DNA of 40,711 nt from Haloterrigena salina JCM 13891 (GTDB lineage Archaea > Halobacteriota > Halobacteria > Halobacteriales > Natrialbaceae): positions 42,157 to 82,867 of the forward strand of contig NZ_AOIS01000034.1 in NCBI RefSeq assembly GCF_000337495.1, written 5' to 3'. Position numbers and translations under genes: made by a program. Positions 19,628-21,872 of this stretch are shown here, piece by piece (the stretch's first letter is position 1; each line of letters begins with the position of its first letter). The notes beneath the pieces are model-generated. The model worked only from the letters and a program-made list of their open reading frames with translations, ran no database searches and had not been told where the DNA came from.

Positions 19628-19634
19628 GTCTTAC
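19628..19634. promoter_or_regulatory. GTCTTAC half-site upstream of cdrL
   Basis: GTCTTAC is the reverse complement of the GTAAGAC heptamer that recurs in the cdrL-cdrS gap. Here it sits about 20 bases upstream of the cdrL TATA-like box, consistent with autoregulation by a ribbon-helix-helix protein. Confidence 0.45.
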
Positions 19635-19688: not shown

Positions 19689-20300
19689 ATGAGTAAGATC
19701 ACGTTCCGCGCCGACGACGACCTCGTCGACGAACTCGAGGCGCTCGAGATCTCCAAGAGCGAAGCGATGCGAGAGGCGCTGCGCTCGTATCTCGGGGCCG
19801 ACGGGCGGTCGGAACGTGACGGTGCGGCGAGCGAGGCCGGGACGGGCGCGATCGACGAACTGATTCGCCAGCGGGTCGACGAACGGATCGACGAACGCCT
19901 TCGGGAGCTAGATCGGGGCGTTCGAACGCGCGACCGCCGCGGACCGAACGAGTTCTCCGTTACCGTTTCGCTCGCGGACGACGCACGTGACGGGCGGTCG
20001 GAACTCGCGGGCGACCGCGCGCGTAGCGTCTCCCAGCAGTCGGACGATCCGGTCGAGAACACCGCCCCCGCCAGTACGGACGAGCAGCCGGCGGTGAACG
20101 ACGACGGTCCCGCCCAGTGTGGACAGTGTGGCGAGGTGGTCGCAGACGACCACGTCTTCTGTCCCAACTGCGGGGAGAAGGCGTCGCGACGGCTGTTCTG
20201 TGAGTGTGGTGACGAGGTCCGTTCGGACTGGTCGTTCTGTCCCGGCTGCGGTCGTCGGACGCCGGCGGCAGACGTGCTCGGACGTGACACTCCGTCATAA
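19689..20300 (+). CDS. cdrL: CdrL-type regulator: ribbon-helix-helix plus double zinc ribbon
   Basis: A 203-residue protein. Residues 1-36 are a ribbon-helix-helix DNA-binding domain (KITFRADDDLVDELEAL, SKSEAMREALRSYL), residues 52-80 a charged coiled-coil-like helix (IDELIRQRVDERIDERLREL), residues 85-140 a disordered linker, and residues 144-187 two zinc ribbons with Cys144, 147, 158, 161 and Cys171, 173, 184, 187. Haloarchaea encode such a long RHH protein (CdrL) next to the short one (CdrS) and ftsZ2, and these control cell division. It lies 196 bases upstream of cdrS on the same strand. GTAAGAC repeats before both genes are candidate binding sites. The gene name rests on context and domain order. 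Confidence 0.85.
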   Translation: MSKITFRADDDLVDELEALEISKSEAMREALRSYLGADGRSERDGAASEAGTGAIDELIRQRVDERIDERLRELDRGVRTRDRRGPNEFSVTVSLADDARDGRSELAGDRARSVSQQSDDPVENTAPASTDEQPAVNDDGPAQCGQCGEVVADDHVFCPNCGEKASRRLFCECGDEVRSDWSFCPGCGRRTPAADVLGRDTPS

Positions 20301-20308
20301 GGACCTAT

Positions 20309-20478
20309 GTAAGACACGGATAGTCGTGTCCGACGAAAGTTTTATTGTGTATGGGAGTATTCCACTTATTCGCGTAAGACGGTCGTCTTACAACGGTCGG
20401 CAAACGCCGAAAAACGCCCGATGTCGGGCGGCTCCGTGTAAGACACGCCGCGTCTGACAGGGGCGCGCGCCGTCTTAC
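20309..20478. promoter_or_regulatory. array of GTAAGAC operator half-sites in front of cdrS-ftsZ2
   Basis: The heptamer GTAAGAC occurs forward at 20309-20315, 20374-20380 and 20438-20444, and inverted at 20385-20391 and 20472-20478. The middle pair forms a perfect 18-base palindrome GTAAGACGGTCGTCTTAC (20374-20391). The outer forward copies share ten bases (GTAAGACACG). Two more palindromes lie between them: TCGGC/GCCGA at 20397-20410 and CGCCCGA/TCGGGCG at 20415-20430. Paired half-sites are what a dimeric ribbon-helix-helix protein binds, and CdrL and CdrS are both encoded here. That either binds this motif is inference. Confidence 0.6.
20334..20346 (+). promoter_or_regulatory. TATA-like box of the cdrS-ftsZ2 unit
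   Basis: CGAAAGTTTTATT is a BRE-plus-TATA-like string and the best AT-rich candidate in the gap. Transcription would start near 20370, right before the 18-base palindrome, leaving a leader of about 125 bases before cdrS, unusually long for a haloarchaeon. Confidence 0.45.
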
Positions 20479-20496
20479 CCCAAGGGGAATACAACA

Positions 20497-20676
20497 ATGG
20501 AGCGTGTGACACTGCGAATTCCGAAACAGCAGATCGAGGAAGTCGAACAACTGGTCGACTCGGGCGAGTTCCCGAACCGGAGCGAAGCGATCCGGTCGGC
20601 CGTTCGCGAGATGATCAACGAACAGAGCGACGGACCGAGCGAGCAGTCCGGCAAACACAACTGGGCCAAGGTGTAA
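20497..20676 (+). CDS. cdrS: CdrS, short ribbon-helix-helix regulator of cell division
   Basis: A 59-residue protein, [20 protein letters not shown] then [20 protein letters not shown], a complete ribbon-helix-helix domain (strand residues 2-9, helices about 10-22 and 28-42), followed by a polar tail ending KHNWAKV. In haloarchaea CdrS is encoded immediately before ftsZ2 and acts as a regulator of division genes. Here its stop is two bases before the ftsZ2 ATG, so the two are surely one operon. It begins at ATG 20497. Small size makes it easy to miss in automated annotation. Confidence 0.92.
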
Positions 20677-20678
20677 CG

Positions 20679-21872
20679 ATGCAGGATATCGTTCAAGACG
20701 CACTCGAAAACGCCGAACAGGAGTCCCGGGAGATGGAAGACATGGACGAGGACGAGTTCGGCGACCCTCGAATCGTCATCGTCGGTGCGGGCGGTGCGGG
20801 TAACAATACGATCAACCGGCTGTACAACATCGGCGTCGACGGTGCCGATACCGTGGCGATCAACACGGACAAGCAGCACCTCAAGATGATCGAGGCCGAC
20901 ACGAAGATCCTGGTCGGCAAGTCCCTCACCAACGGGCTCGGCGCTGGCGGCGACCCATCGATGGGCGAGCGCGCGACCGAGATGGCCCAGAGCACGATCA
21001 AGGAGGTCCTCGGCGACGCGGACCTCGTGTTCGTGACCGCCGGGATGGGTGGCGGAACCGGTACCGGTGCCGCTCCCGTCGTCTCCAAGATCGCCAAGGA
21101 GCAGGGTGCGATCGTCGTCGGCATGGTCTCGACGCCCTTTAACGTCGAACGTGCGCGTACGGTCAAGGCCGAGGAAGGCCTCGAGAAACTGCGCGAGCAG
21201 GCCGACTCGATCATCGTGCTCGACAACAACCGGCTGCTCGACTACGTCCCGAACCTCCCGATCGGCAAGGCGTTCTCGGTGATGGACCAGATCATCGCCG
21301 AGACCGTCAAGGGCATCTCGGAGACGATCACCCAGCCCTCGCTGATCAACCTGGACTACGCCGACATGTCGACGATCATGAACCAGGGCGGCGTCGCCGT
21401 CATGCTGGTCGGCGAGACCCAGGACAAGAACAAGACCGACGAGGTCGTCAAGGACGCGATGAACCACCCGCTGCTGGACGTCGACTACCGCGGCGCCTCC
21501 GGCGGACTGGTCCACATTACCGGCGGCCCCGACCTCACGCTGAAAGAGGCCGAGGGCATCGCGGACAACATCACCGAGCGCCTCGAGGCCTCGGCGAACG
21601 TCATCTGGGGCGCGCGGATCCAGGACAACTACAAGGGCAAGGTGCGGGTCATGGCGATCATGACCGGCGTCCAGAGCGCGCAGGTGCTCGGTCCGACGAC
21701 CCAGAAGCAGGCCGACAAGTCCCGCAAGAGCATCGAGGGATTCAACCAGGCCGACTTCGACGCGAGCAACAACGTCGAGGAGGCGGGCTCGCGGACGCGA
21801 GGCTCTAACGCGCACAGCGACGGCGGCCGCGAAGAGGTCGAGAAACAACACGGCGTCGACGTAATCCGGTAA
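20679..21872 (+). CDS. ftsZ2: cell division protein FtsZ2
   Basis: A 397-residue tubulin-superfamily GTPase. The nucleotide-binding loop GAGGAGNNT is at residues 37-45, the tubulin signature GGGTGTG at 124-130, and the T7 loop with NLDYADM near 225. The N-terminal 28 residues are acidic and the C-terminal 50 are disordered with a short ending KQHGVDVIR. In haloarchaea FtsZ1 assembles the division ring and FtsZ2 drives constriction; the acidic N-terminal extension, the CdrS neighbour and the ncsA synteny assign this one as FtsZ2. It is the second gene of the cdrS-ftsZ2 operon, two bases after cdrS. Confidence 0.96.

Follow-up and report, generated by a model that had tools for sequence, protein, structure and literature searches.

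The heptamer GTAAGAC, clustered between cdrL and cdrS in the window (the whole 40,711-nucleotide stretch of Haloterrigena salina DNA analyzed here), is a class-wide conserved, operator-like motif of the cdrS-ftsZ2 leader. We consider it probable, at roughly three chances in four, that CdrL reads this motif as a putative operator round the start of the cdrS-ftsZ2 transcript, probably repressing it, and that this arrangement replaced an ancestral CdrS array. Dimers of CdrL, which has the ribbon-helix-helix (RHH) fold, would bind GTAAGAC heptamers bracketing the promoter and the transcript start, laid out as a facing pair after the start, one or two additional half-sites within the leader and, in many lineages, another 5' of TATA; judged by the position of the sites, CdrL would repress initiation or early elongation. 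At ftsZ1, dacZ, psmB, hisB and probably cdrL, CdrS would read another box, GTCNGAC, typically as two copies 11 bp apart just 5' of the core promoter. We infer these protein-DNA assignments from sequence together with published ChIP, and repression and the evolutionary order likewise. The features of the locus are as follows.

19628..19634, minus strand: lone GTCTTAC, 61 nt 5' of cdrL, about where many relatives have a CdrS-type GTCWGAC
19689..20300, plus strand: cdrL, RHH (KITFR strand) and double zinc ribbon, proposed reader of GTAAGAC
20309..20315, plus strand: half-site F0, GTAAGAC, 65 nt 5' of the palindrome and upstream of TATA
20334..20345, plus strand: probable BRE/TATA of cdrS-ftsZ2, CGAAAG TTTTAT, conserved in the footprint alignment
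20374..20391, unstranded: putative core operator F1/R1, GTAAGAC-GGTC-GTCTTAC, by conservation across genomes
20392..20437, plus strand: leader segment II, a predicted RNA hairpin, stabler than shuffles in diverse relatives
20438..20444, plus strand: half-site F2, GTAAGAC, by sequence and the alignment of relatives
20452..20458, unstranded: CdrS-type box GTCTGAC within the leader, kept in many Natrialbales (alignments)
20472..20478, minus strand: half-site R2, GTCTTAC on the plus strand, 18 nt 5' of the cdrS start
20484..20490, plus strand: near-invariant GGGGAAT right before the cdrS ATG, by alignment
20497..20676, plus strand: cdrS, RHH protein of 59 aa, by profile match
20679..21872, plus strand: ftsZ2, 2 nt 3' of cdrS, by profile match

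Five GTAAGAC sites lie within 170 bp (20309+, 20374+, 20385−, 20438+ and 20472−), as an earlier note on this DNA had counted, and one more is found at 19628−. The whole 4.84-Mb genome contains 80 copies, of which 42 are forward and 38 reverse; that density predicts 0.0028 copies per 170 bp, and the Poisson probability of at least five is about 1.5e-15, so that the genome-wide count places the locus far above chance. The paired form is single-copy in this genome, as it is in each of five congeners. The sequence GTAAGACGGTCGTCTTAC at 20374-20391 had been described as a perfect 18-base palindrome, but only 16 of its 18 positions equal its reverse complement, with 8-bp arms around a central GT; the perfectly symmetric version, GTAAGACGGCCGTCTTAC, is present in many relatives. 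Repeated short half-sites, both inverted and direct, are present at the locus, as expected for the operator of an RHH regulator. The claim that both adjoining genes encode RHH proteins was also supported: CdrS scored over the cut-off of the RHH family PF01402 and CdrL at 20.0 against a cut-off of 20.5 (Pfam matches of CdrL: DZR and Zn_Ribbon over the cut-off, CdrL_M and RHH_1 slightly under it), and cdrL lies 5' of cdrS in 80/80 named relatives.

When the cdrL-cdrS gaps were aligned, the motif was present in the corresponding gap of every relative examined. Each of the 80 named haloarchaeal loci, retrieved by CdrS similarity, has exact copies of GTAAGAC in the gap at near-fixed positions, and in a set of haloarchaeal cdrS leaders that includes 18 further genomes, picked because they were exceptions or belonged to distant families, all 99 carry the heptamer (440 copies versus 3.5 in dinucleotide shuffles). 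Over the class, GTAAGAC-N3-6-GTCTTAC was found in 280 of 292 genomes (single in 279, double in one), counts which overstate independence because the genomes are related; genera are the better measure, and 74 of the 77 covered have a match. Among the 12 genomes without an exact pair, 11 show a variant at cdrS (spacer 2 or one mismatched arm), and in the twelfth, G232, no cdrS was detectable. Probable Halobacterium genomes, their genus guessed from a 55-aa CdrS, have the complete site set. The sole genome of the 292 with a second GTAAGAC pair is G242.

The arrangement relative to the promoter is also conserved. The pair stands about 100-130 nt 5' of cdrS in 22/22 genomes for which both coordinates were at hand (compared by eye), and a TATA-like element begins 32-33 nt 5' of the palindrome in 71 of the 79 gaps with an exact pair; therefore the pair would lie just 3' of the transcription start, as the earlier note had proposed, and in the window this start is inferred to fall at about 20367-20372. 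Farther upstream, F0 is present in 38/79 gaps, nearly all at −64/−65, where most Natrialbales have it, a reverse half-site R0 occupies −45 to −53 in 18 further gaps, and 23/79 have no upstream half-site. Spacing of the half-sites in the core pair is most commonly 11 bp and ranges from 9 to 13 bp, which is unusual for a rigid tetramer. The GGGGAAT ahead of the cdrS start codon was seen in nearly all haloarchaeal relatives and is not a canonical Shine-Dalgarno sequence.

It had been suggested that one motif serves the whole division locus through CdrL and/or CdrS; instead, GTAAGAC was confined to the cdrS-ftsZ2 leader, and a look at other division genes revealed that ftsZ1 and many cdrL promoters hold GTCNGAC, different by one base. 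GTAAGAC was absent from the ftsZ1 upstream regions of 29 haloarchaea, which held 25 GTCWGAC and 16 GTCSGAC boxes; these stand just 5' of the core promoter and are 11 bp apart in 15 of 16 intervals. CdrS ChIP-seq in Haloferax yielded 18 loci, including ftsZ1, dacZ, psmB and hisB, from which the cdrS promoter is absent (PMC8406309). GTCAGAC stands at conserved positions, at dacZ in all four Haloferax and at psmB in three or more of the four; no exact box was found at the alpha-type subunits. The paired CdrS-type pattern is rare in Haloferax genomes (3 and 4 places); ftsZ1 is among the places in each, and hisB among those of one, G268, a Haloferax genome by plasmid match in which the pattern gave 5 matches at 4 places. 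When A-type and C-type boxes were compared by locus, the ratios were 460:55 versus 7:65 (Fisher p ~1e-44, for sequences that are non-independent): the heptamers of haloarchaeal cdrS leaders are overwhelmingly GTAAGAC, with A where the CdrS-type box has C at position 3. GTAAGAC as the CdrS box was rejected on the box sequences of ftsZ1, hisB, dacZ and psmB. Two further placements of the CdrS-type pattern were noted: at L127 (G000:C63:149406) is the only GTCWGAC-N4-GTCNGAC of this genome besides that of ftsZ1, and at L161 and L163 (Haloferax) a conserved pair lies between two divergent genes, possibly among the published hypothetical targets.

As for cdrL itself, the copy 5' of the gene, at 19628, is real in this sequence but is not kept as GTAAGAC in relatives, by which a GTAAGAC before cdrL as part of a single shared code was ruled out. 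Many haloarchaea outside Natrialbales (many of L037-L080) have a CdrS-type pair ahead of the core promoter of cdrL (scores of 10/12 or more in 67%, versus 1% of shuffles); the window itself has a degenerate form of the pair, and the GTCTTAC at 19628 is near the same place. Action of CdrS on cdrL via this predicted pair is tentative, because cdrL is absent from the Haloferax CdrS list despite the promoter box. Deletion of cdrS in Halobacterium has been published to leave ftsZ1 unresponsive.

Since four published CdrS targets in Haloferax, and ftsZ1 promoters across the class, carry GTCNGAC, we assigned GTAAGAC to CdrL. In Halobacterium salinarum, CdrL ChIP-seq (GSE148065) is described as giving one reproducible site per genome, 5' of cdrS-ftsZ2 (Darnell et al. 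2020, PMC7439475), matching the near single-copy paired GTAAGAC at the same promoter; the accessible text of that study describes the peak with no motif, summit, site positions or conservation. The published binding supports this promoter as a CdrL site but not the motif itself; four of the published CdrS targets carry GTCNGAC. In the literature searched we found no CdrL binding sequence, and a search for GTAAGAC in haloarchaea returned unrelated papers only. The RHH strands of the two proteins are alike (ERVTLR in CdrS, KITFR in CdrL; common pattern [K/R]-x-T-x-R), and Arg versus Lys at position 3 may account for the one-base difference between their boxes.

Activation of cdrS-ftsZ2 by CdrL through the half-site 5' of TATA, which we regard as unlikely, would fit with the presence of an upstream half-site in 56/79 gaps and with the co-expression of cdrL and cdrS-ftsZ2 reported under metal overload in Halobacterium (PMC7439475). 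This co-expression is unlike what a simple constitutive CdrL repressor would predict, and leaves room for activation; besides, the published cdrL deletion strain bore second-site mutations, masking the effect of the deletion. However, the upstream half-site is missing in 23/79 gaps, whereas the pair, the sole universal site, lies just 3' of the predicted start, a position for a repressor.

Reading of GTA-A-GAC by CdrS alone, or by a CdrS-CdrL heterodimer with CdrS on the GAC side and CdrL on GTA, has distinctly low odds in our estimation. The heptamer is asymmetric and retains one half of the CdrS-type GTC-W-GAC, the two proteins share the strand pattern given above, and a GTCTGAC box is kept in the leader of many Natrialbales. 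Nevertheless, the 18 Haloferax ChIP loci do not include the cdrS promoter, and the asymmetry needs no heterodimer because the RHH homotetramer NikR of Escherichia coli recognizes a half-site, GTATGA, that is itself asymmetric (PMC7055735).

It is improbable that the repeats act mainly as RNA, with GUAAGAC/GUCUUAC stems in a long cdrS leader governing translation or mRNA decay, for although F1/R1 and F2/R2 are able to pair, the intervening segments are stabler than shuffles despite sequence variation and post-transcriptional control of cdrS-ftsZ2 has been proposed in Halobacterium (PMC8303175), the heptamers are near-invariant rather than covarying, a copy 5' of TATA is retained at constant spacing, F2 is kept where R2 is lost (L097, L098) and no Rfam family matches. 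A DNA operator is favored because of the near-invariant heptamers and the copy 5' of TATA, and an RNA layer may exist alongside it. Leader hairpins were judged by folding versus shuffles; the segments between heptamers at 20392-20478 fold as hairpins whose sequence varies among genera. A known structured RNA leader or riboswitch was rejected, since the Rfam search gave nothing besides tRNA-Tyr and one chance match below the threshold.

With CdrL binding at GTAAGAC as the preferred reading, the locus can be set beside known RHH operators. In Haloferax volcanii (Liao et al. 2021, PMC8406309), CdrS is likewise an RHH regulator of the same locus and its motif is symmetric; the paired heptamers that we deduced at ftsZ1 and hisB have the 7-4-7 layout of those sites, and the CdrS box deduced here from sequences, apart from the published logo, is GTCNGAC as opposed to GTAAGAC. 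CdrS sites are mostly 5' of promoters, whereas the GTAAGAC pair follows the start site. The NikR operator, GTATGA-N16-TCATAC, is also read by an RHH protein at inverted half-sites of nearly the same word, but these are far apart and spanned by a tetramer domain that binds metal. CdrL and CdrS lack this domain, with zinc ribbons taking its place in CdrL. The top PDB sequence matches of both RHH domains were NikR proteins, very weakly for CdrL. Plasmid Omega repressors use 7-bp boxes, direct and inverted, with one RHH dimer per box, as may also be the case at this locus; their heptads are contiguous on plasmids, whereas here they are dispersed around one chromosomal promoter.

Outside the haloarchaea, 20 cdrS-ftsZ2 loci in the same phylum but in other families (L107-L126) had 40 GTCWGAC in their leaders, downstream of TATA, at intervals that were all multiples of 11 bp and with weaker boxes in the same phase; GTAAGAC was absent from these 20 leaders and no cdrL was found within about 3 kb around cdrS. 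CdrL was confined to Halobacteria in a published survey (PMC7439475). The leader of L118 resembles about nine 11-bp units. Such an outgroup leader looks like a phased CdrS array, a candidate for autoregulation, and since the array occurs in relatives without a nearby cdrL, self-control of cdrS appears ancestral. Haloarchaea appear to have passed the cdrS promoter to CdrL through a one-base box change when CdrL appeared. It is possible, albeit speculative, that cdrS autoregulation was thereby replaced by a two-regulator loop, in which CdrS, by way of GTCNGAC pairs, would control cdrL and ftsZ1, and CdrL, by way of GTAAGAC repeats, would in turn control cdrS-ftsZ2. If true, such a negative loop with a delay could set the timing of FtsZ2 levels or buffer them, with its two codes separated by a single base.

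Knowledge of how archaeal division genes are transcriptionally controlled comes from two papers, those naming CdrS and CdrL. The single-copy, class-wide candidate operator described here would supply the binding sequence of CdrL, assigning it to one of two sister regulators, and its conservation illustrates how an operator may have evolved along with its regulator upon the appearance of CdrL. How cdrS is controlled in methanogens and related archaea becomes testable as well.
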